Assembly (NCBI RefSeq): GCF_026686735.1
Contig: NZ_CP113432.1
Span: forward strand, 4,391,001 to 4,455,000
DNA from: Pseudomonas triclosanedens
Lineage (GTDB): Bacteria > Pseudomonadota > Gammaproteobacteria > Pseudomonadales > Pseudomonadaceae
Reading direction: 5' to 3'
Length of the DNA: 64,000 nucleotides
Part shown: positions 8,729 through 59,752 of the stretch, in pieces
How positions within the stretch are numbered: position 1 is the stretch's first letter
How the letters are laid out: each line of letters opens with the position of its first letter
Translations under genes and position numbers: made by a program
Notes under the pieces: model-generated
Seen by the model: the letters and a program-made list of their open reading frames with translations, nothing else
Database searches by the model: none
Told to the model about the DNA's origin: nothing

Positions 8729-10249
8729 TCAGCGCGCGGCGCTACGCTGCGTCGTGCGCTCGAAGAGCATCGCCTGCACCTCCCCGCCGGCATGCCGGGC
8801 CACGCGCCGCCAACTGGCGGGCACATCGGGAATCTCGTCGTCGTTGTAGCGGCTCATCACCAGCCAGACGCGGCCATCGTCCTGCGGCAGGTCGGCCAGG
8901 TGATCGACGAAAACATGCCGGCGGTCGTCGATCAGCGAACCGAAGCCATAACGTCCCGGGCGCCCGGACGAACCGTCCGCCGCCGGCGCGGTGTACAGCA
9001 GCGGCTCGCTGCCGGTGCGGTTGTAGTAGCGGAATGTCAGGTACCAGAGGATATCGTCCACCACCACGCGGTCGCCGTGGCGGTAATGCGCGTTCACGTA
9101 GGCCACCATGCCGTCGAACTGCTCGTTCGGGTCAGCCGCGAACGTCTGCCCCAGGCCCACGCACTCCAGCCCCAGCAACGTCACCAGCATGGCCGCGCCC
9201 AGCGCGCGGCGCGACGCCAGCAGGCGGTCCAGCGCCACCGCCAGCAGCAGCGGCAGGCCCAGGGCGAAGGCCGTCAGGTAGCGCTCGACGAATACTGGCG
9301 AGAGGAACGACACGCCATACAGCAACAGCAACGGCAAGCCGCAATATAGTGCCAGCAGCACGCCGCTGCGCAGGCGACTGCGATCGCGCAGCAGCACCAG
9401 CAGCGTCGCCGCCAGCAGCAACATCGGCAGGCCGAGCAGCACCGGCCAGGGCAGCTCGTTGCCGTCGGACTGCGCCAGCCATTGCCAGAGCATCGAGGGC
9501 AGCGACAGCGCATCGACCGGCGGCTGCCAGCCGACATCGCCACCGGCCACCAGTACGCGCATATGGCCAAGCAGATCGAGCAGCCCCGGCAGCCAGGGCA
9601 GGACCAACACGCCGATGGCCAGATTGGCCAGCCACCAGTCGCGCCGCCGCAGCGGGCTGTCCGCCAGAGAAGCCAGCCAGAGCCAATGCACCAGCAGGCC
9701 CAGCACGGTGAAGTAATGGGTGTAGAACGCCGCCGCCATCAGCAGCACATAGACCGCCAGATAGCGACGCCGCCCACCCTCCAGCCAGTACAGCAATGCC
9801 AGGGTCGCCGCCAGCAACCAGCACCCCAACAGCGAATACATACGCACTTCCTGGCTGTAGCGCACCGCCGTGGGCAGCAGCGCCAGCAACAGCATGGCGA
9901 GAAAGGCCGCGCGGCGGCTGGCGAGCCGCCATGCCAGCCAGGCGCCAAGCGACACAGCCAGAACACCGAACAGCGCGCTCAGCAGACGCAGCGAGAGGAT
10001 GCCGTCGCCCAGCACCTGCACCCACACATGCAGGAGCAGAAAATACAGCGGCGGATGCACGTCGTGGGCAGCGTGGCGCCACAACTGCAACGGCGAATAC
10101 TGGGCAAGGATCAGGCTGGAGCTCTCGTCGCCCCAGATGGCCGAAGCGGTCAGTTCATGCAGCCGCAGGTACAGGGCGAGCGCCAGCAGCGGCAGGAACC
10201 ACCACTGACGCAACAGGCTAGGAAAGCTCGACGGCTCGCGGGACGACAT
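8729..10249 (-). CDS. GT39/ArnT-like polytopic glycosyltransferase
   Basis: 506 residues, starting MSSREPSSF after a GAGGGTG ribosome site. It is a GT-C fold integral membrane protein with about ten or eleven helices. The first external loop carries the acidic motif SAIWGDESSSLILAQ near residue 40, typical of PMT/ArnT-like transferases that use polyprenyl-phosphate sugars. HDVHPPLYFLLLHVW and YSQEVRMYSLLGCWLLA are family hallmarks. The last 110 residues form a soluble, presumably periplasmic, domain. Acceptor and sugar are unknown; lipid A, arabinan-like or protein glycosylation are all possible. No aminoarabinose operon adjoins it. Confidence 0.85.
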   Translation of the reverse strand: MSSREPSSFPSLLRQWWFLPLLALALYLRLHELTASAIWGDESSSLILAQYSPLQLWRHAAHDVHPPLYFLLLHVWVQVLGDGILSLRLLSALFGVLAVSLGAWLAWRLASRRAAFLAMLLLALLPTAVRYSQEVRMYSLLGCWLLAATLALLYWLEGGRRRYLAVYVLLMAAAFYTHYFTVLGLLVHWLWLASLADSPLRRRDWWLANLAIGVLVLPWLPGLLDLLGHMRVLVAGGDVGWQPPVDALSLPSMLWQWLAQSDGNELPWPVLLGLPMLLLAATLLVLLRDRSRLRSGVLLALYCGLPLLLLYGVSFLSPVFVERYLTAFALGLPLLLAVALDRLLASRRALGAAMLVTLLGLECVGLGQTFAADPNEQFDGMVAYVNAHYRHGDRVVVDDILWYLTFRYYNRTGSEPLLYTAPAADGSSGRPGRYGFGSLIDDRRHVFVDHLADLPQDDGRVWLVMSRYNDDEIPDVPASWRRVARHAGGEVQAMLFERTTQRSAAR

Positions 10250-48893: not shown

Positions 48894-49509
48894 AGCAGCC
48901 AAGTCCGGCGCCACGCCCATCGAAGGCGACGGCAAGCGCATCCTGCTGCTGCTTGGCTCGCCCAAGCCCGGCGGTTTCTGCCACGCACTGGCCGAAGCCT
49001 ACGCCCAGGGCGCCCGCTCCAGGGGCCATGTGGTGCATAGCATCAAGCTCGGCGAAATGAACTTCGATCCGGTGCTGCGCGGCGGCTACGAGCAGAGCCA
49101 GAACCTGGAGCCGGACGTGCTGGAAGCGCAGCGGCAGATCCACTGGGCGCAGCACCTGGTGTTCATCTACCCGATCTGGTGGGGCGGGCTGCCGGCACTG
49201 CTGCAAGGGTTCTTCGACCGTGTGCTGCAGCCAGGCTTCGCCTTCCGCTACCGTGCAGCCGAGTCCCGCGAGTTCGAGCCGCTGCTGGGCGGACGCAGCG
49301 CCGACCTGCTGGTCAGCCACGACCAGACCCACTGGCACTACCGCCTGCGCCAGGGCGCGCCGGCACATCGGCAGATGAGCCGCTGCATCCTCGCGCCGTG
49401 CGGCATCGGCCTGCGCCACCTGGAAGAATTCAGCCCGGTGCGCGGCTCCAGCGAGGAACAGCGCCAGGGCTGGTTGCGCCGGGCGGAGCAACTGGGCACG
49501 CTGGTCTGA
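48886..49509 (+). CDS. Flavodoxin-fold NAD(P)H:quinone oxidoreductase
   Basis: 207 residues of the Flavodoxin_2 (KefF/MdaB/NQO-like) family. The FMN/FAD phosphate loop is [20 protein letters not shown] near 15-35, and the characteristic [20 protein letters not shown] is near 90-110, followed by [13 protein letters not shown]. It probably catalyses two-electron quinone reduction in the cytoplasm. It overlaps the 3' end of fumC by eight bases and is translationally coupled to it. A palindromic repeat follows seven bases after the stop. Confidence 0.9.
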
Positions 49510-49515
49510 TGGAAC

Positions 49516-49599
49516 GGCGGATAACGCCTGAGGCGTTATTCGCCCTACACCGTCGATTAAATCCGTGTAGGGCGCATAACCCGGAACGGGTTATCCGCC
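49516..49599. repeat. Composite palindromic intergenic repeat (copy A)
   Basis: Two 35-base arms (49516-49550 and 49565-49599) face each other across 14 bases. Each arm has fixed ends, GGCGGAT on one side and CGCCCTACAC on the other, around its own hairpin: ATAACGCC-TGA-GGCGTTAT and ATAACCCG-GAA-CGGGTTAT. It lies between the convergent oxidoreductase and hsdR stops, so it may also terminate both transcripts. It is a mobile-REP-like element; a related copy is at 62461-62537. Confidence 0.85.
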
Positions 49600-49606
49600 G
49601 CTGCCA

Positions 49607-52600
49607 TCAAGCCGCCTCGGCAGACGCCTTGACCTTGGCCAATGCTGCGAACAGCTCATCGACCTGCGCTGTATTGAACAAGCCCTCCGGCCCGGCTGGC
49701 GTCAGATCGGTGAACGGCGACTCATAAAGCAACCGCGCCTCCATCACCCCATGCTCGGTCAGGTGCTGGATCACCAGGTTGACGAATTCCAGTTGGTTCC
49801 CACTCATCGCCCTGCCACCGATGAAGCTGGACAGTGCCTCGCTAGCCGCTTCGCGGTCCAGACCAACCAGCGAACGGATGAACAGCCCCAGGCCGTGGGC
49901 CTGCTCCTTGGCGCGATGAATGTCGCCAGCTCCGCCTCCGCTCTCCACCAGCATCTGTTCCAGTGCCTCAAGGTCCGTCGGCGTCAAAGGTTGATTACGA
50001 CGCAGCTTGCGCAGGGACAAATGATCCTCGTGGGCGCGCAGGAAGGCACGGGCCTTCTCGCGGAAGCGCTCGAAGCTGGCGGGGTTGACCATCGATGGCA
50101 TGACCACCTCGCTGATATCACCCAGCTCATCCTCGAAATTGCTGTACACCACCGCCCCCTTGCGCTTCTCCAGCAGCTTGATCAGCGCTCGCAGCTTTCG
50201 CCTGGCCTGCTCCAGCATGGAAACGGTGACATCCCGCCACCACTCCTCACCCGCCACGGCCTCAATCAGTAGCACGTGCTCGGCGATGGCCGGAATGCTG
50301 GTCTGCTCAAGCAACGCCCCGGCGATTTCACGAACCTTCTCGCTCAAGCGGGCAAACCCCGGCTCGGCGTTCAGCACGCACAACTGCAAACGCAGCAACA
50401 GTAGGTCGAAGCGTTTGGCCTCTTCATCCTCGTCAGGCAACGTACTGGGCAGCCCGGAGACATGTTCCCCCAGGTCGCGCAGGCTGCCGTCATCCAGGGT
50501 TTTCCAGGCATCCATCTGGGCGAAGCGCTCCACCCAGCGGCGTTTGGGCCGCACCAGGAAATTGTCCAACGACATGCCCGCCACCCGCTCCTGCAACATC
50601 ACCGCAGTTTCCTCACGCAATAGCTCGTCGCTGTACAGCGCCCCATAAGCGCCGCAGGTTTCGCGCGCTTCACTACTGGCGCGGCGGCAATCCAGTGCGG
50701 ACAGCAACTCCAGGCGAGTCTTGAACAGTCGCTGTCCCAACGGCTCAGTCAGCGAGCCATCAGTAGGCTCGGGATTCTGGTTGAAATACTCCAGGTTCTG
50801 GCAGAAGTCGAAGATGTAGAAATCCTGCTTGTCGTTCTCCGGCTCCGGCCCAGGCCCGTACAGGTTCTTGCAGAGCCGGGTACCACGCCCGACCATCTGC
50901 CAGAACTTGGCCTTGGAGCGCACCAGCTTGAAGAACACCAGGTTGACCACTTCCGGCACGTCGATGCCGGTGTCGAGCATATCCACGGAAATAGCGATAT
51001 GTGGCGCCTTGTCCTTGATGGAAAAGTCGTCGATCAGCGTCTGTGCGTACTCAAGCTTGTAGGTGATAGTGCGAGCGAAGGCACCGGCCTTGTCCGGGTA
51101 GTTAGCGTCGAAGCGCCGGGCGATGAAATCCGCGTGATCATTGTTCTTGGCGAAAATGATGGTCTTGCCCAGGCGGTCGCCGCCGGCCACCTTGTGGCCG
51201 CGCTCCATCAGTACCTGCAGCATCTTGTCCACGGTATCTTCGTTGAACAGCCAGCGGTTGACCGCCTCGGCGTTCACCTCTTCCGGCGGCTCTTCCTCAT
51301 CGCCCCAGTCCAGTTCGTCCCACTGGTCTTTCTCGTCCTCGCTCAAGTCGTCGTAACGAATGCCACCACGCTGAAACTTCAGTGGCACCGACACCCCGCG
51401 CGGTTTCACCAGATAACGTTCGGCAATGGCGTCATCCAGGGTATAGGCGTCGGTGGGCACACCGCTTTCCAGGTTGAACAGGCTATAGGTATTGCGGTCG
51501 ATCTCGTCCTTCGGCGTGGCCGTCAGCCCCACCAGCAGCGCATCGAAGTAAGAAAAGATCGCCCGGTACTTCTGGTATACCGAGCGGTGCGCCTCGTCGA
51601 TGACAATCAGGTCGAAGTGTCCGATACCAAAGCGCTTGGGCCCCTCCTGTTTCTCATTGATCAACCCCATCATGGTCGGGTACGTGCTGACGTAGACCCG
51701 CCCTTCGGTGTTCTTCTCGGTCACCAGATTGACCGGCGCCACGTCCGGCAGGAATTTCTTGAACGCCCCGGCCGCCTGGTTCACCAACGCCACGCGATCG
51801 GCGAGGAAGAGAATGCGCTTGGCCCAATTGCAGCGCATCAGCAGGTCCGTGAGCGCAATCACCGTGCGCGTCTTGCCGGCACCGGTGGCCATTACCACCA
51901 GGGCCTTGCGCTGACGGTCGTGTTCGAAGGTCTCGCCGATTCGGCGAATGGCGCGCTGCTGGTAATGGCGCTCGACGATGGCCGGATCGATGGTCGCCTC
52001 ACCCAGCGGCTTGCGGCTACTGCGTCGCTGTACCAGCAATGCCAGTTCATCCTTCTTGTGGAAGCCCTGCACCAGGCGCGGCGGATACATCGCGTCATCC
52101 CACAGCCAATGCTCATATCCATTGCTGTAGTAGATCAGCGGGCGCTGCCCATAGCGCTGTTCCAGGCAATCGGCATACAGCTTGGCCTGCTGCTGCCCCT
52201 CCTGAGCATCACGGCTGGTGCGCTTGGCTTCGACCAGCGCCAACGGCTTGCCATCATCGCCCCAGAGCACGTAATCGACGAAACCGACACCCTGCTGATT
52301 AGGCATGCCACTGACTTCGAATTCACGGTCCTGGACGCTATCCAGTGTCCAGCCGGCCTCATGCAGCAACTGGTCGATGAACAGATCGCGAGTCTGAGCC
52401 TCGTTGTAGTCGTGACTATCGGGAATGGCCTTATTGGCAGCCTTGGCAGCCTCGACCTCGGCACGCAGCCGGGCGCGCTCCTCATCCAGCGCGGCGTTCC
52501 TCTGCTGGGCCTTGGCCAGCGCCTCGTCGCGCTGCGCCAGCTCATCCTCCAGCTGTCGCAACTGCGCTTGGGTTTGTAGCGCTGCCTGCGCGGCAGGCAC

Positions 52601-53029
52601 CGGCAACAAAATAGCCTCGAAACGCAGACTACCGCCGGGCCTTCCCGCTGCCGTGCGCGCGTAGGTACGCGCCAACCAGTAGGCAACATGGAACAGTTCG
52701 CTGACCACTGCCTGGGCATCGCGCTCGCGCACTTCCCGCTGGCTGTGCACCGCATCGTTGCCGCGCTTGCGGATGATCTCCATCTTCGCGTGGAGCATCG
52801 GCCCCACCAGCGCCTTGAAGCTCGGCTCGAAAAGGAAGGCCGACAGATCGCTCTTGTACGGCAGCTTCAGGCTGCGGTCGGCCTGGAACAACCAGGCTAC
52901 CAGCAGCTCCAGCGTGCGCCGGGAGTAGAAGCAGGCCGAGCGCGGGTCGGCCAGTACATTGGCCTCCGCCTTGGTCGCCTCGGCGTGCAGGTTGGGCCAT
53001 TCGGCCTTGAGGAAGGCGAAGTTACTCAT
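49607..53029 (-). CDS. hsdR: Type I restriction enzyme R subunit with DUF4145 N-terminus
   Basis: 1140 residues. Order: DUF4145-like helical domain (about 15-120, SACFYSRRTLELLVAWLFQ and GNDAVHSQREV); coiled coil (about 150-200); PD-(D/E)xK nuclease (about 205-300, VDYVLWG then LALVEAKR near 263); SF2 translocase with Walker A MATGAGKTRTVI near 384 and VIDEAHRS near 474; motif VI region QMVGRGTRLCKNL near 712; helical C-terminus for MTase docking. All key residues are present. It cleaves unmodified DNA after ATP-driven translocation. The start ATG overlaps the previous stop (ATGA) with GGAG upstream. Last gene of the five-gene operon. Confidence 0.95.
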   Translation of the reverse strand: MSNFAFLKAEWPNLHAEATKAEANVLADPRSACFYSRRTLELLVAWLFQADRSLKLPYKSDLSAFLFEPSFKALVGPMLHAKMEIIRKRGNDAVHSQREVRERDAQAVVSELFHVAYWLARTYARTAAGRPGGSLRFEAILLPVPAAQAALQTQAQLRQLEDELAQRDEALAKAQQRNAALDEERARLRAEVEAAKAANKAIPDSHDYNEAQTRDLFIDQLLHEAGWTLDSVQDREFEVSGMPNQQGVGFVDYVLWGDDGKPLALVEAKRTSRDAQEGQQQAKLYADCLEQRYGQRPLIYYSNGYEHWLWDDAMYPPRLVQGFHKKDELALLVQRRSSRKPLGEATIDPAIVERHYQQRAIRRIGETFEHDRQRKALVVMATGAGKTRTVIALTDLLMRCNWAKRILFLADRVALVNQAAGAFKKFLPDVAPVNLVTEKNTEGRVYVSTYPTMMGLINEKQEGPKRFGIGHFDLIVIDEAHRSVYQKYRAIFSYFDALLVGLTATPKDEIDRNTYSLFNLESGVPTDAYTLDDAIAERYLVKPRGVSVPLKFQRGGIRYDDLSEDEKDQWDELDWGDEEEPPEEVNAEAVNRWLFNEDTVDKMLQVLMERGHKVAGGDRLGKTIIFAKNNDHADFIARRFDANYPDKAGAFARTITYKLEYAQTLIDDFSIKDKAPHIAISVDMLDTGIDVPEVVNLVFFKLVRSKAKFWQMVGRGTRLCKNLYGPGPEPENDKQDFYIFDFCQNLEYFNQNPEPTDGSLTEPLGQRLFKTRLELLSALDCRRASSEARETCGAYGALYSDELLREETAVMLQERVAGMSLDNFLVRPKRRWVERFAQMDAWKTLDDGSLRDLGEHVSGLPSTLPDEDEEAKRFDLLLLRLQLCVLNAEPGFARLSEKVREIAGALLEQTSIPAIAEHVLLIEAVAGEEWWRDVTVSMLEQARRKLRALIKLLEKRKGAVVYSNFEDELGDISEVVMPSMVNPASFERFREKARAFLRAHEDHLSLRKLRRNQPLTPTDLEALEQMLVESGGGAGDIHRAKEQAHGLGLFIRSLVGLDREAASEALSSFIGGRAMSGNQLEFVNLVIQHLTEHGVMEARLLYESPFTDLTPAGPEGLFNTAQVDELFAALAKVKASAEAA

Positions 53030-55140
53030 GCATCGGCTCCATTGCCCAATTGACGCTCCAAAGACTGACGGACCAGCCCGATGATGTAGGGCACATCGTC
53101 CATATCCTCAAGAAATACCGACACATCGCCATTGCCCCAACGCCCCAACCCAGTCACATCCTGGCAAATACCCCACGGGTCATTGATGTCGGCAAACGGC
53201 ATATTCAACGACAGACGCAGGCGATTAGCTTGCGGCACCACATCGACGAAATTGGTCTCCGCCTTGTAAGCCACATACAACTTGAGGAATTCTTCGTTGA
53301 TGCATGGATCAAGCTGCAGGACAGACTGACGGAAATAATGGAACAGGTCTGAAACCCGCCCTTGCAGCAACTGCGGATGGTCCTCGATGCCGTACACCGC
53401 AGCAGTACTCTTCGGCTGGTAGCTTTGCAGGAGTTCAGCCCCCAGTATCGGCGCCCCCCACACCTGAACAGCCGTATCAGCCAAACGCTCCGCCCGCGCC
53501 TTGATCGCGGCCTCATCCCAGTGTTCCACCACCCCCAGCCCCGCATTCAAGCGCAGCGGGCTCTCGCGGAAGCCTCCAACCATATCGCGCTTTTCGGCAA
53601 AGGCCCGGTCGCTGTACTCGGAGTTGTAGCCCGTCAGCGTGAGGTTGCCGAGGGTATGCAGCCAGGTGCCTTGCACGCGTTCCCAGTCTGCGCCCAGCTC
53701 AGCCTTCCAGGCAGCGGAAAGCGCCGGGTTCTGCGGCAGGATGTGCTCGATGCTGTACTCATCCACCGACACCCGCTCCTTGCGCCCGAAGTTCTCCAGG
53801 CGGCGCAGCCAATAACTGCGGCTGCGGAAGTGATACAGATCGCGCGTCTGCAACTCACGCCAGAACTCATCGTCAGACGGGAAGCGGCGATAGGACGGCA
53901 ACATCAGGAACTGGGCCTGAATGCTTTCCAGATAGCGCGCCTTGTTCAACGCACGGCTGAAGGTCGCGAAGGTCTTGTTCAGCGAGTTGGTAGGGATAGC
54001 GCAGACCGCGCGGCGGAACACATAGCCCTCCACCAGGCGCACCGCGGCCAACAGGTCCGCCTTGCTCAGGTCGCCGCCCACGTAGTCGTGGTACAGCTCC
54101 AGCAGGAAGGGATAGGCCACATCCACCTTCAGCTCGCGCAGATCGTGGAAAGCCAGGCGCAGCTCGGCATCGCTCTCCGCGCCCAGCGCCATCGCGCCGA
54201 AATAGCGGGCGTAGTCGCGAATTTCCCGCACCAGCGCCTCTACCCCCGCCTGCTCCACCTCCAATCGCCGCGCGTGGTTGCGGAACTCGTCGTAGACCTC
54301 GTCCTGGCGCGGGATTTCACCGGTCTTGACGATCAGGTAATGGCGCATGAAGGCATCGAAATACTGCACATAAGCTTCCTGGCCGAAGCCCACTTCCATT
54401 GGCCGCCAGTACTCCTCGTAAAGCCGCGTCTGCAACGCCGGCTCCAGCCCCATGAGGATGAAGTTGCGGATCAGGTCGGCCTGGCTCAGCTTGCGGCCGG
54501 TGGAGTTCATGCTTTCGAAGATGCGCTGCGGGTTGTCCTGCGCGCGGTTCAGCGCGATATCCACCACCACCAGCTTGGCCAGCCCCTTGCACAAGGCCAG
54601 CAACTCCTCGGCATTACAGGCGGCGATACGCGACTGGAACAGCGCGAAGTTCTCGCAAACCCGCAGCGACCGCGCCTCGGGCAGATCGCGCCCGGCCACC
54701 AGGGCCAGCAGCGACTGCTTGTCGGTTTGCGACAACAGCAGCTTGAAGTGCCGCTCGCCCTCCTCCTCGGCATTGAGCAGATACCAGTTACGCAGCTTGC
54801 GCGGGGCGAAACCGTCCAGCGGCTCACGCTCGCCTTCCGGCAGGGCCTCCAGCGTGCGGGCCAGCGCGGTGAGCAGCAAAGTCACCGTGGTCAAGCGCTG
54901 CTGGCCGTCGATCACCAGCAGCGGCTCGATGCTGGTCAGGTTGGACAGGCCCTTCTCCACATACACGATGGAACCCACGAAATGCGAAGCCAGTTGCTCA
55001 TCGCTGCCCACCCGCAACACATCGGCCCAGAGCTGCAGGCATTCCTTTTCCGTCCAGGAATAGCTGCGCTGGTAGATGGGGATGACGAACTGCGGAGACT
55101 TCTTCAGGAAATCGAGGAACTTGGCTTCCGATGCTTTCAT
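53026..55140 (-). CDS. DUF262/DUF1524 GmrSD-like protein embedded in the hsd operon
   Basis: 704 residues. The N-terminal DUF262 domain carries VIPIYQRSYSW near 29-39 and the ParB/sulfiredoxin-like nucleotide motif IDGQQRLTT near 77. The central/C-terminal DUF1524 His-Me-finger nuclease has EHILPQNP near 465 and GNLTLTGYNSEYS near 495, the H...N pair of the fold. A DUF5655-like domain covers about 590-704. GmrSD proteins are NTP-dependent type IV nucleases against glucosylated or otherwise modified phage DNA; DUF262 proteins also occur as RloF-type inserts in type I loci. AAGGA precedes the ATG. It lies one base after the 274-aa gene and overlaps hsdR by four bases. Confidence 0.9.
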   Translation of the reverse strand: MKASEAKFLDFLKKSPQFVIPIYQRSYSWTEKECLQLWADVLRVGSDEQLASHFVGSIVYVEKGLSNLTSIEPLLVIDGQQRLTTVTLLLTALARTLEALPEGEREPLDGFAPRKLRNWYLLNAEEEGERHFKLLLSQTDKQSLLALVAGRDLPEARSLRVCENFALFQSRIAACNAEELLALCKGLAKLVVVDIALNRAQDNPQRIFESMNSTGRKLSQADLIRNFILMGLEPALQTRLYEEYWRPMEVGFGQEAYVQYFDAFMRHYLIVKTGEIPRQDEVYDEFRNHARRLEVEQAGVEALVREIRDYARYFGAMALGAESDAELRLAFHDLRELKVDVAYPFLLELYHDYVGGDLSKADLLAAVRLVEGYVFRRAVCAIPTNSLNKTFATFSRALNKARYLESIQAQFLMLPSYRRFPSDDEFWRELQTRDLYHFRSRSYWLRRLENFGRKERVSVDEYSIEHILPQNPALSAAWKAELGADWERVQGTWLHTLGNLTLTGYNSEYSDRAFAEKRDMVGGFRESPLRLNAGLGVVEHWDEAAIKARAERLADTAVQVWGAPILGAELLQSYQPKSTAAVYGIEDHPQLLQGRVSDLFHYFRQSVLQLDPCINEEFLKLYVAYKAETNFVDVVPQANRLRLSLNMPFADINDPWGICQDVTGLGRWGNGDVSVFLEDMDDVPYIIGLVRQSLERQLGNGADA

Positions 55141-55141
55141 G

Positions 55142-55966
55142 TCAACGTCCTTGGAAAAGGGCTTCCGCATCGATGCGGCCGCTCAAGTACGGGGTGAAAC
55201 CGACGAACAGAATACAAAGTGCCAGCATGTCGCGCATCCCCAACTCCCCTTCTACGCTGGCGGGTTTGCCGCCGTGGCGGATGCCCGGGTAGTCGCAGGT
55301 GAAGCCATACAGCAGCTTGAGCGCCTCGCGCACCTTGCGGTGCGGCCAGAGCGGCATCTGATCGCAGATGCTCGACAGGGCGTACTCCTTGACGTACGGG
55401 TTGCTGCGTCCGAGCGCCTCCAGCAGGTTCATCTGCTTGTGCAGACAGGTCTTGATGCGGCCCTGGCTGGGCGCGTCGTGCAGGTCGCGGAAGGCATCGT
55501 CGAAGTCGCGCAGCAGGGTCGGCAGGCTGGGGTGGCTGGCGCTGTGCTCGCGCAGTTGCGCCAGCAGGCCGGCGAACAGGCCCGGCAGCGTGGGGTACAG
55601 CTTGCACGGGCGGCGCAGTTCGTACTGCAGGTTATAGGTATCGATCAACGCGGCCAGGCGGTTGAAGTAGGCATTGGCCAGGGCCTCGCCGCCCAGTTCA
55701 TCCAGCGCGCCGTGCAGGCGCTGGAGAAAGTCTGTCAGCGCCGCTTCACCGGTCAGCGCCTCGGGTTTGAGCGCGCGGAAGGCGCGGCGGCTGGCCGCCG
55801 GGTCGCCGAGGAGGTCGGCCAGTGGCGTCGGGCCGGGGCTTACCCGCAGGGCCGGAACGATGGCGCGGAACAGCTCGCAGTAGAAATCTCCCGGCGCCCG
55901 CCGCGCCAGCGGCCCCCACAGCTCGCGGCCCAGGCGGGGCCAGACAGCGAGCAGGGAGCCGCGCAT
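55142..55966 (-). CDS. Unrecognised 274-aa protein in the hsd operon, possible Abi/HEPN-like
   Basis: 274 residues, all-helical looking, no membrane helix or signal. Segments that might be diagnostic are RRPCKLYPTLPGLFAGLLAQL near 118-138, KQMNLLEALGRSNPYVKEYA near 180, and above all FTCDYPGIRHGGKP near 233 followed by a hydrophobic helix (MLALCILFVGFTPYL). The late R-H-G-G plus helix resembles the end of abortive-infection/HEPN-type domains, but I could not place it in a named family. It is three bases after hsdS and one base before the GmrSD-like gene, so it is an obligate part of the operon. Its presence between hsdS and the nuclease suggests an accessory or effector role. Confidence 0.75.
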   Translation of the reverse strand: MRGSLLAVWPRLGRELWGPLARRAPGDFYCELFRAIVPALRVSPGPTPLADLLGDPAASRRAFRALKPEALTGEAALTDFLQRLHGALDELGGEALANAYFNRLAALIDTYNLQYELRRPCKLYPTLPGLFAGLLAQLREHSASHPSLPTLLRDFDDAFRDLHDAPSQGRIKTCLHKQMNLLEALGRSNPYVKEYALSSICDQMPLWPHRKVREALKLLYGFTCDYPGIRHGGKPASVEGELGMRDMLALCILFVGFTPYLSGRIDAEALFQGR

Positions 55967-55969
55967 GGG

Positions 55970-57076
55970 TCAGAGCTCGCCGCGGAAGGCGCGGTGTTGG
56001 AGGGAGTGGAATAGGTTATCCAATTCCTTCAATTGCTTTAACAGCACCTGTCTAGACTGCCGAATTGTCTCTATCCGATTTAAAAATTTTTTCTGCAGCG
56101 CTACATCAGGCAAGGGAACTTTCAACTCTCTAATCATTGACAGGTTCAAGTTCTGTTGACGAACGCCTCGCTGCATCCTGCGATAGTCTTCCCGCCCTAT
56201 CAAAATCGAGAAGTAAACAAACACTGCATCAACCAAATTCTCATCCAAACTTGAGAACGCTATGGCTTGATTACAGGAGCAATCAATCGCGGAAATACTT
56301 ACCTTAAGCGCAGCAGTGTCGTACATCCCGATCAAAATGGATCCAGCCAAGACCGGCTTGGCTGACGTTTTCTGCAATGCCTCTTTTGATATCTTCTCCT
56401 GGCTTTCAGAGATATACATCCCCTCTAGCTCTCCAGAAGAAAACCAAGGTACGTCGCCTTCAAAATGCTGCTGTTCACTTCTGGGAGGCGTGCCGCCAGT
56501 CCTCCATGCGCCAAGTTCCCCTAGGGAAACCATTTTGCGATCTTTCGGACCACGCGTCGGATGTCCAAACATCTCAATAAAAATCGCCTGAGCCAGCGCA
56601 TCCAGCTGTTCAAGCGCAGCACGGCGTTTGGCGCGCAGGGATTCGGCTTGATCTAGAATAGTTGCAATGCGTTTTTGCTCCTTCTCTTCCAAAGGAGCAA
56701 CCACATCAAACTCCTTTAAGAATTTAAAATGGCGTGAGTAACCTGCACTCTCGATTTTAATAGAGCGAAGAAAATGATATAAATACCTTGCATCTCCCTT
56801 TTTGGGAGATAGAACTTTGACGCCATCCGCCCCAATGCAAAATGGAAAATCAATGTATTTTAGATTCCGGGTATGATCACCGAAAACCACAACAGGAAGC
56901 TCGCCTTTCCAAAGCATCCTTTCATCATTTACATAACCCGCAATCAAATCCTTACCTTGGTCAATTACAGGGTATGCTCCTGACTTTAGATACTCAGTCT
57001 GCGGAACTTTTTCGTTACCACTCGAAACGTCATTCACTACGTCAAGAAATGGTAATTTCTCCCAAGTAGCGTTCAC
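55970..57076 (-). CDS. hsdS: Type I restriction-modification specificity subunit HsdS
   Basis: 368 residues with a GTG start that overlaps the hsdM stop (GTGA). Two target-recognition domains (about 5-125 and 180-310) are each followed by a conserved coiled coil: EEKEQKRIATILDQAESLRAK near 130 and DVALQKKFLNRIETIRQSRQ near 325. SLGELGAWRTGGTPPR opens the second TRD. It is somewhat short (typical 390-450). The stretch 56000-57060 is visibly AT-rich and rich in rare codons compared with hsdM and hsdR, consistent with recombinational replacement of the recognition domains. Recognition sequence is not predictable here. Confidence 0.93.
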   Translation of the reverse strand: MNATWEKLPFLDVVNDVSSGNEKVPQTEYLKSGAYPVIDQGKDLIAGYVNDERMLWKGELPVVVFGDHTRNLKYIDFPFCIGADGVKVLSPKKGDARYLYHFLRSIKIESAGYSRHFKFLKEFDVVAPLEEKEQKRIATILDQAESLRAKRRAALEQLDALAQAIFIEMFGHPTRGPKDRKMVSLGELGAWRTGGTPPRSEQQHFEGDVPWFSSGELEGMYISESQEKISKEALQKTSAKPVLAGSILIGMYDTAALKVSISAIDCSCNQAIAFSSLDENLVDAVFVYFSILIGREDYRRMQRGVRQQNLNLSMIRELKVPLPDVALQKKFLNRIETIRQSRQVLLKQLKELDNLFHSLQHRAFRGEL

Positions 57077-58611
57077 TTGAGCATCCCCCGCAGCACCGTC
57101 ATCCCCTGCTGAATTTCCTCTTCCAGTTTCTCCAGCTCATCGAGAATCTCAGCCGGGCTGCGATGCTCTACCACCTCGTGCTCCACTTCCCTATAGCGGT
57201 TGAGCGTCAGGTCATAACCATTGGCGACTATTTCCTCACGAGGCACGCAGAAGCTTTGCGCGGTGCGCGGGCGGTTGCGTTCGCTGGTGGCGCGTTCGTG
57301 CCAGCGAGCGAGCACGTCGGGCAGGTTGTTCTTCGCGTGGTCCGCCTCATCCAATGCCTGCTCGGGGCGCACGCCGAACTTGGCTTCATCGAGCAGCAGG
57401 TTGCGCTTGTCGTCCAGGCTCATGCCGTCGGCTTCGACGTTGTAGAACCAGACGTGGTCGGTGCCGCCGGAGTTGGTCTTGGTGAACAGCAGGATGGAGG
57501 TGGCGACGCCGGCGTAGGGCTTGAATACGCCGCTGGGCAGTTTCACCACGGCGTCGAGCTTGTGCTCGTCCACCAGCAGGCGGCGAATATCCCGGTGCGC
57601 CTTGCCGGAGCCGAAACAGACGCCGTCGGGCACGATTACCGCGGCGCGGCCGCCGGGCTTGAGCAGGCGCAGGAACAGGGCGAGGAACAGCAGTTCGGTC
57701 TTCTTGGTTTTGACGATGCGTTGCAGGTCCTGAGCGGTGCTTTCGTAGTCCAGGCTGCCGGCGAACGGCGGGTTGGCGAGGATCAGGCTGTAGTGCTCGG
57801 CTTCGCCGGCGGTGTCTTCCGCCAGGGAGTCGCGGTAGCGGATGTCGGGGTTTTCCACGCCGTGCAGCAGCATGTTCATGCTGCCGATGCGCAGCATGAC
57901 GTTGTCGAAGTCGAAGCCGTGGAACAGGCCGTGGTGGAAGTGCTGCTTCTGTGCGGCATCGTGCAGCAGCGCGGGATATTCGCGGCGCAGGTATTCGCCA
58001 GCACCCACCAGGAAGCCGCAGGTGCCGGCGGCGGGATCGCAGATCACGTCGTTGGGCTTGGGCGCGGTGAGCTCGACCATCAGTTGGATGATGTGCCGCG
58101 GGGTGCGGAACTGGCCGTTCTGCCCGGCGGCGGCGATCTTGCCGAGCATGTATTCGTAGATATCGCCCTTGGTGTCACGGTCTTCCATGGGGATGCGGTC
58201 GAGCAGGTCGACCACGGTGGCCAGCAGGCGCGGCGTGGGGATGGTGAAGCGCGCATCGCGCATGTGGTGGCTGTAGGTGGAGCCGTCGTCGCCGAGGGTC
58301 TTGAGGAAGGGGAAGACGTGCTGGCTGACTACTTCGTACATTTCCGCCGGGGGCAGGTTCTTGAACACGCTCCAGCGGTAGTCGTTGTAGTTGCAGCCGC
58401 GCGGGTCGAGGCCGTCGGGGAAGATGCAGCGCTCCATCTCGCGGCCCAGGCGGGCGGCCTTGTTCAGTTCGAGGGTGTGCAGTTCGTCGAGGCGGCGCAG
58501 GAACAGCAGGTAGGTGAGCTGTTCCATCACTTCCATGGGGTTGGCGATACCGCCGGTCCAGAAGGCGTTCCAGACGGCGTCGACTTGGCTCTTGAGTTCC
58601 CCGGTAATCAT
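57073..58611 (-). CDS. hsdM: Type I N6-adenine DNA methyltransferase HsdM
   Basis: 512 residues. The N-terminal HsdM_N helical domain (MITGELKSQVDAVWNAFWTG) is followed by the gamma-class N6-MTase. Motif I is DPAAGTCGFLVGAGEYL near 195, catalytic motif IV LILANPPFAGSLD near 278, and RTPRHIIQLMVEL (motif X) near 175. It methylates adenine with HsdS and protects host DNA. It is the first gene of the operon; the other four follow without spacing. The region upstream (58612-58792) must carry the promoter. No strong ribosome site is seen (AAGG about 10 bases before the ATG). Confidence 0.96.
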   Translation of the reverse strand: MITGELKSQVDAVWNAFWTGGIANPMEVMEQLTYLLFLRRLDELHTLELNKAARLGREMERCIFPDGLDPRGCNYNDYRWSVFKNLPPAEMYEVVSQHVFPFLKTLGDDGSTYSHHMRDARFTIPTPRLLATVVDLLDRIPMEDRDTKGDIYEYMLGKIAAAGQNGQFRTPRHIIQLMVELTAPKPNDVICDPAAGTCGFLVGAGEYLRREYPALLHDAAQKQHFHHGLFHGFDFDNVMLRIGSMNMLLHGVENPDIRYRDSLAEDTAGEAEHYSLILANPPFAGSLDYESTAQDLQRIVKTKKTELLFLALFLRLLKPGGRAAVIVPDGVCFGSGKAHRDIRRLLVDEHKLDAVVKLPSGVFKPYAGVATSILLFTKTNSGGTDHVWFYNVEADGMSLDDKRNLLLDEAKFGVRPEQALDEADHAKNNLPDVLARWHERATSERNRPRTAQSFCVPREEIVANGYDLTLNRYREVEHEVVEHRSPAEILDELEKLEEEIQQGMTVLRGMLK

Positions 58612-58792
58612 TGCGTGTGCCTTGGCCTGAAAATGACAAAGGCGCGATTGTACTCATTGGCGTGTGGCCGTTCATCCTGCGACATTTTCGCTGGATGGAT
58701 TCGCTCACCACTCTGGCAAACGAGGCATTACGCCACAGCGCCCAGAGGAGGCGTGCCGGAGCAATGGCCCGACGCGCGCTCCTTGGGAGCCT

Positions 58793-59752
58793 TCAGACAT
58801 CCACCACCCGCTGGCGGCGCGCGCGGTAAGTGCGCAGCAGCGACGGCGCCAGCGCCGTGAGCGCCGAGCCGCTGACTACCAGCAATGCACCGATGTAGGC
58901 CAGGCCGTTGAGGTTTTCCGGGTGCACGTAGTCGGGCCACAGCGAGGCGGCGAGTGCGACCGAGGCAAAGGTCACCAGCGGCGTGATGGCCAGGGTGGCG
59001 CTGACGCGGGACGCCTCCCAGTGGACCAGCGCCTCGGCGAAGGCGCCGTAGGCGACCAGGGTGTTCAGGCAGCAGGCCAGCAGCAGCCAGCCTTGCAGCG
59101 GGCTGAGCTGCAGCGCTTCCAGCGGGTGCGCCCAGGGCGTGAGCAGGGCGGCGCAACCGAGGTAGATCACCATCATCACCTGCACCGAGGTCCACTGCGT
59201 CAGCAGTTGCTTCTGCGCCAGGCCGTAGAAGGTCCAGACGAAGGCGGCGAAGACCACGATCAGCACGCCAGTGGTGTAGTTGCCCAGCGAGCCGAACAGC
59301 TCGGCCAGACGCTGGTTGAAGAACAACCCGAAGCCTGCGATCAGCACCGCCAGGCCGAGGCCCTGGCCAATGCTGAAGCTTTCCTTGAAGAGGAACAGAC
59401 TGCCCAGCAGCAGGAGGATCGGGGCGATCTGGATCACCAGTTGGGTGGTGCCCGGGGTGAGCATGCGCAGGCCGATCAGGTAGAACACGTAGTTGCCGGT
59501 CAGGCCCAGGATCGCCACCAGCACAAGCCCCCCTCCGCGCCGGCCCAACGGCGAGAAGCGCGGCAACTGGCGGGTGAAAGCCAGGTAGATCAACAGCAGG
59601 CCACCGGAGACCACCAGGCGAAACCAGGTCACGGTGACCGGGTCCATCGTCTTGAGGACTTCCTTTAGCTTGATCGGCAGGATGCCCCAGAGTACGGCGG
59701 TGACCAGGGCGAGGAACAGGCCGAATTGCCAGCGGCCGGATGTAACGTGCAT
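58793..59752 (-). CDS. DMT-superfamily (EamA) transporter
   Basis: 319 residues, ten membrane helices arranged as two EamA repeats (about 10-145 and 160-300). LALVTAVLWGILPIKLKEVL and PVTVTWFRLVVSGGLLL open the first repeat, and TGVLIVVFAAFVWTFYGLAQ the second. Members export or import amino acids or other metabolites; specificity is not deducible. The start MHVTSGRWQ at 59752 has GAGGCTCCC upstream. It is a single-gene unit between hsdM and the MAPEG gene. Confidence 0.92.
   Translation of the reverse strand: MHVTSGRWQFGLFLALVTAVLWGILPIKLKEVLKTMDPVTVTWFRLVVSGGLLLIYLAFTRQLPRFSPLGRRGGGLVLVAILGLTGNYVFYLIGLRMLTPGTTQLVIQIAPILLLLGSLFLFKESFSIGQGLGLAVLIAGFGLFFNQRLAELFGSLGNYTTGVLIVVFAAFVWTFYGLAQKQLLTQWTSVQVMMVIYLGCAALLTPWAHPLEALQLSPLQGWLLLACCLNTLVAYGAFAEALVHWEASRVSATLAITPLVTFASVALAASLWPDYVHPENLNGLAYIGALLVVSGSALTALAPSLLRTYRARRQRVVDV

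Follow-up and report, generated by a model that had tools for sequence, protein, structure and literature searches.

What does a gene do that sits inside a type I restriction-modification (R-M) operon and matches no named protein family? The question arises from a 64,000-nucleotide stretch of Pseudomonas triclosanedens DNA (contig NZ_CP113432.1, positions 4,391,001 to 4,455,000; hereafter the window), in which a gene that we call X and a gene for a GmrSD-like protein lie between hsdS and hsdR. All five genes are open and are on the minus strand, from 58611 to 49607, in the order hsdM-hsdS-X-GmrSD-hsdR, and reading of the sequence together with the coordinates gave junctions of -4, +3, +1, and -4 bases. 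An earlier note, made from the letters alone, had described this five-gene operon with a GTGA overlap, gaps of 3 bases and 1 base, and a 4-base overlap, and it was correct in both respects. The best explanation, to which we give an even chance, is that X is an ATPase-less, PrrC-like HEPN guard of an EcoEI/EcoAI-like restriction enzyme and that the GmrSD gene is exchangeable cargo. The gene order, the junctions, the homology and invariant residues of X, its near one-way linkage to hsd genes, and the independence of X and GmrSD are direct observations.

Linkage of X to hsd genes

The X gene (55142..55966, minus strand) starts 3 bases after hsdS and encodes 274 residues with an AbiJ-type HEPN domain, predicted to be a guard or back-up effector. 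One single-sequence search yielded 496 relatives at E up to 1e-3, and a scan with an alignment of X, using one genome per species, gave 71 loci. Three of these were from archaeal genomes, at least two of which are metagenome bins by title. A single-sequence scan found X on no viral contig, and 1 of 72,556 plasmid records carried it.

The neighbors of the X loci were judged by tblastn with the window proteins. It was found that, among the 60 loci with at least 3.5 kb upstream, hsdM was upstream of X in 57 and hsdS in 55; the loci without hsdM were L020 and the fragments L070 and L072, none of which had hsdS there either. The order in L068 was hsdM-X-hsdS-hsdR, so that no hsdS was upstream, and L069 had an hsdS-like frame directly before X that was missed by tblastn and judged by eye. 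As for hsdR, it was present in the DNA examined of 56 of the 57 loci whose downstream side reached 4 kb or more, the exception being L072, which contains just the last 36 residues of X. In the window, X occupies the place that prrC has in its type I locus, with hsdS on one side and hsdR on the other. Measured in 61 loci, the spacing between the end of hsdS and the start of X was -4 to +3 bases in 52, 802-805 bases in five, where another gene intervenes, and 579, 53, -11, and -44 bases in the remainder. In L064 and L069, hsdR was upstream of hsdM, yet X was still directly behind hsdS. The conserved feature is the position of X directly behind hsdS.

In five loci of Alphaproteobacteria (L018, L019, L021, L022, and L023; about 9198-10004), a Ymh HEPN gene separates hsdS from X; it was identified by Pfam in L018 (6e-42) and by clustering with the L018 gene in the other four; therefore, the operon there carries two HEPN-type genes.

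The reverse linkage was evaluated by starting from hsdR, taking loci with HsdR at least 50% identical. X was intact in 2 of the 17 judged loci, present as a truncated start in 2, and absent from 13. One of the two loci with intact X (L131) is probably the same genome as L042, and the count left out the window itself, G133 (the contig begins inside hsdR), and G272, which has a partial hsdR (54% over residues 314-1034) and no hsdM, hsdS, or X in the stretch examined. The X-first scan had suggested that X was a core subunit of an hsd clade, and this hsdR-first sampling led us to reject that idea. In L095 (10131-11408), the frame behind hsdS begins with roughly the first 17 residues of X and runs on as a DUF4143 ATPase, and this X start had an alignment score of 55, compared to 8-21 for other frames and X-less sites. 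In L096, an X start (alignment score 75) is followed by a gene called Fic-like by its resemblance to that of L098; in L098 itself, no X remnant was found. The remnants in L095 and L096 indicate that X was displaced there while hsd stayed. The same kind of DUF4143 ATPase was also seen behind an open X in L049, and in L060 and G591 (L115), X appeared by eye to break off near residue 100 and to continue into a transposase-like frame. The linkage is therefore nearly one-way: hsd does without X, and an intact X lacking both hsdM and hsdS nearby came up a single time, in L020.

Mapped onto a 75-row tree of HsdR, X required 12 changes, at least 10 of them forced by the starred branches, and GmrSD required 10; on this tree with more X-less rows, the proposal that X forms one clean clade was rejected. 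The X-less rows were more clustered than shuffled labels, of which 3 of 500 gave as low a value (shuffle mean 17.1). X distances correlated with those of HsdM (r 0.69) and HsdR (r 0.73) over 44 loci, with r 0.91 for HsdM and HsdR, and the X-HsdS correlation was r 0.20 compared to 0.32 for HsdM-HsdS (34 loci).

Such tight coupling to hsdS, which is kept in L064 and L069 even with hsdR elsewhere, would also be expected if X were a non-toxic accessory subunit or regulator of the type I enzyme, for example by stabilizing the HsdM-HsdS complex or limiting HsdR loading, with the HEPN domain used for binding and not for RNA cleavage. The lack of a canonical HEPN motif in X (see below) agrees with this proposal. 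However, close hsdR relatives lacked an intact X in 15 of the 17 hsdR-first loci, X gave way to ATPase or Fic cargo in L095 and L096, and the invariant E183 and H231 at HEPN active-site positions would not be expected of a mere scaffold; we regard an accessory role as rather unlikely.

The GmrSD-like neighbor and the gap behind X

The GmrSD-like gene (53026..55140, minus strand; 704 residues) is separated from X by a single base, the X stop being followed by one C and then by the ATG at 55140 (ATG after TGAC); an alternative in-frame ATG upstream, at 55170, would overlap X. The protein consists of DUF262, DUF1524, and a DUF5655 tail (Pfam GmrSD_N 8e-33, GmrSD_C 3e-24, and DUF5655 3e-7). The motifs QR, DGQQR, FESMN, and IEHI were identical in all 15 copies from X loci, including that of the window, so that DUF262 and DUF1524 are accompanied by the QR, DGQQR, FxxxN, and His-Me motifs. 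By the criteria given in PMC11411939, the intact motifs predict an active modification-dependent enzyme. The window protein is accordingly predicted to be a type IV restriction enzyme that acts on modified phage DNA independently of X. The suggestion in the earlier note that the operon could cover both unmodified and modified DNA is plausible from the sequence, given that a DUF262/DUF1524 protein whose motifs are intact is joined to a type I operon through junctions that overlap or nearly touch.

In 63 loci, hsdR was downstream of X, and we compared the gaps that separate the two genes. The gap was shorter than 260 bases in 28 and contained a window-type GmrSD in 14, which span several phyla and in some of which other open frames intervene (e.g., L002, L012, L014, L055, and L058). 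The other 21 had different content, including hsdS itself in L068, a GmrSD fragment in L057, and the gaps of L070 and L071, in which X is partial. Among 16 cargo representatives, the Pfam families found were AlbA_2/Schlafen with HATPase, Ymh, RloF-type DUF262, Fic, T5orf172, PLDc, DUF4143 ATPase, AAA ATPase, and nucleotidyltransferase, and 5 of the 16 matched no Pfam family.

The converse comparison started from GmrSD. Window-type copies (at least 55% identity) were found in 11 plasmid records and in 5 other genomes of the class sample, and 12 of these regions were read (7 of the 11 plasmid regions and all 5 from genomes). X was present in one, on a plasmid of Ruegeria sp. TM1040 with the exact gene order of the window and GmrSD directly behind X, and no X was found in the flanks examined of the other 11. 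Therefore, X and GmrSD are independent, and GmrSD is one of several exchangeable cargo genes in the X-hsdR gap. A specific partnership of X with GmrSD was rejected on the counts from both sides (14 of 63 and 1 of 12). The pairing had been singled out earlier as the novel feature of the locus, a view to be refuted if the two genes were rarely adjacent in other genomes; our tabulation of their co-occurrence found largely that. Separately, an E. coli plasmid record (L158) has an unannotated window-type GmrSD that is flanked by yjiR and symE and neighbors an EcoAI-family hsd operon.

The composite of type I and GmrSD genes is not new either, a composite of this kind having been published and tested against modified phages in Vibrio cholerae VPI-2 (PMC11411939). 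That operon, hsdM-hsdS-tgvA-tgvB-hsdR, resembles the window in having five genes with a GmrSD-family system inside a type I operon. It differs in that TgvA, on which TgvB depends, is a DUF262 protein, whereas X is of HEPN type, had no DUF262 domain in Pfam, and is dispensed with by window-type GmrSD elsewhere. A GmrSD-type enzyme, BrxU, also complements a methylation-based system in the BREX island, although that system is BREX and not type I (PMC8565348), and type I genes are overrepresented in GmrSD neighborhoods, with RloF lying between hsdS and hsdR (PMC4619093).

The two-protein requirement in VPI-2 (PMC11411939) invites the alternative that X is the partner of GmrSD in a TgvAB-like type IV system inserted into the hsd operon. 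The one-base junction, the 14 loci in several phyla with GmrSD between X and hsdR, and the Ruegeria arrangement are consistent with this. GmrSD distances in 13 loci tracked both those of HsdR (r 0.89) and those of X (r 0.60). In contrast, 49 of the 63 X loci were without a full window-type GmrSD, 11 of the 12 loci read from the GmrSD side were without X, X does not have the DUF262 domain of TgvA, and L057 retains X beside a mere GmrSD fragment. We consider such a partnership very improbable.

The HEPN domain of X and a proposed guard function

X matched no Pfam or NCBIfam family, and its match to PADLOC PDC-S32 was 1.6e-5. Profile comparison showed that residues 162-258 are homologous to AbiJ_NTD4 proteins (hhalign E 5e-8, with 13 controls at 0.16 or worse). 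The hhalign range, the residue conservation, and the helices of the structure model place an AbiJ-type HEPN-like domain at the C terminus of X (55193..55483, minus strand; about residues 162-258), with E183, H209, and R230-H231. X had previously been called unplaced, which still holds at the level of Pfam and NCBIfam families but no longer for this part of the protein. In common with the AbiJ_NTD4-HEPN proteins (PF18863; PADLOC PDC-S32), X has the C-terminal motif LYG(F/Y)xSD..GIRH and a conserved E and two H, the invariant residues of X being E183, H209, and H231. The number of shared conserved columns alone was not significant (hypergeometric P 0.16), and the homology is argued from the profile scores and from the particular residues that agree. 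X differs from these proteins in its position behind hsdS and in having no recognized AbiJ N-terminal domain, since 32 X proteins, compared at E up to 10, together matched 12 families and no such domain was one of them. There was likewise no Pfam ATPase match, and hence no sign of an N-terminal ABC NTPase, in the window X or the 32 X proteins.

A structure model of X from a 59-row alignment had a pLDDT of 92.9, superseding an earlier 32-row fold (pLDDT 81.6), for which the list of structural matches (VIA) mixed HEPN proteins and lyases at similar Z. A Foldseek search of X against PDB and BFVD gave a best E of only 0.48, and the PDB sequence matches of the X profile (a designed repeat protein at 1e-5 and weaker others) were set aside as coiled-helix noise. 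X looks to be under purifying selection, judging from dN/dS values of 0.27-0.37 in comparison to three Pseudomonas relatives.

The length of X varies mainly in the linker after about residue 40, the MRG start and the C-terminal domain being shared. Most X proteins have 274-288 residues, a second form has 310-334, and a third has 364-416. The variation was noted in the X proteins of one group of loci (L038, L036, L054, L056, and L032) and of another (L039, L041, L042, L043, L050, L055, L057, L058, L059, L061, and L062).

HEPN effectors inside type I loci are already known as a kind. PrrC is the classic suicide nuclease kept silent by a restriction enzyme, and HEPN proteins in R-M operons have been proposed to be silenced by the R-M proteins and freed when a phage neutralizes them, like PrrC (PMC3710099). 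The EcoprrI locus of type IC, which encodes PrrC as a latent anticodon nuclease, has the same hsdM-hsdS-effector-hsdR order, and PrrC resembles X in having a HEPN-superfamily C-terminal domain and a systematic type I linkage (PMC3014915, PMC3710099). PrrC is tied to type IC loci and to an ABC ATPase (PMC3014915), whereas X is without the ABC NTPase, its HEPN domain is AbiJ-type, and its type I enzyme is EcoEI/EcoAI-like with a DUF4145 N terminus.

Because X shares with PrrC its position, a tight hsdS junction, and a near one-way linkage to hsd, we propose that the HsdM-HsdS(-HsdR) complex encoded alongside X would hold it silent and that phage inhibition of this complex would release it. Released X would block translation, probably by cutting RNA; its likely role would be that of a suicidal fallback against phages that disable the restriction enzyme. 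The GmrSD-like neighbor would act independently, as a type IV enzyme against modified phage DNA. An RNase activity of X is plausible: H231, E183, and H209 are invariant at HEPN places, but the conserved arginine, R230, adjoins H231 instead of preceding it by 5-7 residues. The earlier idea that the inner two genes are a back-up against evasion of R-M fits X, with its AbiJ-type HEPN domain in the prrC position, but not both genes.

Several observations weigh against a PrrC-like guard. The canonical Rx4-6H motif is not conserved in X, and the only R-x4-6-H patterns of the window protein are at unconserved places. Intact X is scarce among the hsdR-first loci, and L020 has an open X with hsdR directly downstream and no hsdM or hsdS in 10 kb upstream. 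The arrangement of L020 would be less surprising if X were a free-standing abortive-infection toxin that hitch-hikes in a defense operon and senses phage itself, like other AbiJ proteins. The seven AbiJ_NTD4 relatives examined had no hsd genes in their flanks, and many unrelated defense-type genes occupy the X-hsdR gap, as such a toxin might lead one to expect. L020 aside, however, every intact X that was seen had hsd genes beside it, and the place nearest to hsdS belongs to X, with the cargo varying behind it; we think a free-standing toxin distinctly unlikely.

A broader proposal, which we hold tentatively and at somewhat less than even weight, is that X is the founder of a widespread and so far unnamed family of HEPN guards coupled to hsdS, occurring across bacterial phyla and in archaeal metagenome genomes. 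The PrrC principle would then have been invented a second time, independently and without the ATPase; the family would make the EcoEI/EcoAI-like type I enzyme a sensor of anti-restriction, and the gap behind X would be a docking site for further defense genes. No description of the X family, its hsdS coupling in the EcoEI/EcoAI-like lineage, or the exchangeable gap was found in the literature searched, which included few subscription papers. Some solo AbiJ proteins are in operons with R-M systems (PMC3710099, Table 1), so that single X members may have been seen before. Were X to act as such a guard with a bare AbiJ-type HEPN domain, the guarding of restriction enzymes would be a repeatedly invented strategy, AbiJ-type proteins would gain a testable trigger, and a family of 496 relatives without a Pfam or NCBIfam entry would gain a function. 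The modular gap also helps to account for the origin of composite operons, of which type I plus GmrSD is one.

The type I genes and their chromosomal slot

By their sequences, HsdM and HsdS are ordinary type I subunits. The hsdM gene (57073..58611, minus strand) encodes a 512-residue N6-adenine methyltransferase subunit (Pfam N6_Mtase 3e-61 and HsdM_N 1e-14; PADLOC MTase_I 2e-187), and hsdS (55970..57076, minus strand) encodes a 368-residue specificity subunit (Pfam Methylase_S 3e-23), starting with a GTG inside the GTGA of the 4-base overlap with hsdM (57073-57076). The hsdR gene (49607..53029, minus strand), which by coordinates overlaps GmrSD by 4 bases (53026-53029), encodes the 1140-residue restriction subunit with Pfam DUF4145, HSDR_N, ResIII, and EcoEI_R_C domains. 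Its score against NCBIfam EcoAI was 242 bits, under the family cut-off of 550, and because of this sub-cut-off score and the EcoEI-type C terminus, we label HsdR EcoEI/EcoAI-like. DUF4145 is counted among the HEPN domains (PMC3710099), and no similarity between this N-terminal part of HsdR (residues 21-109) and X was found by hhalign. The same genome has a second HsdR (G000:C1:306294-309626), 37% identical, with no X recognized in the surrounding stretch (L111).

The interval from the flavodoxin-like gene to the EamA gene is 9,283 bases in the window; in 10 other genomes of the genus whose two flanks share a contig, it ranges from 69 to 5,919 bases (the flanks of G502 are on different contigs). 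The 9.0-kb operon is too long for the slot in all 10, and therefore the slot is variable and the five genes occupy it as a group. Of the 10 intervals, seven were read as open frames, and other members of the genus carry different content in this slot (window 49509-58793; L164-L170). The GC content dips to 0.54-0.56 in 2-kb windows across hsdS, and between hsdR and the flavodoxin-like gene, at 49515-49600, we read a palindromic, REP-like repeat sequence.

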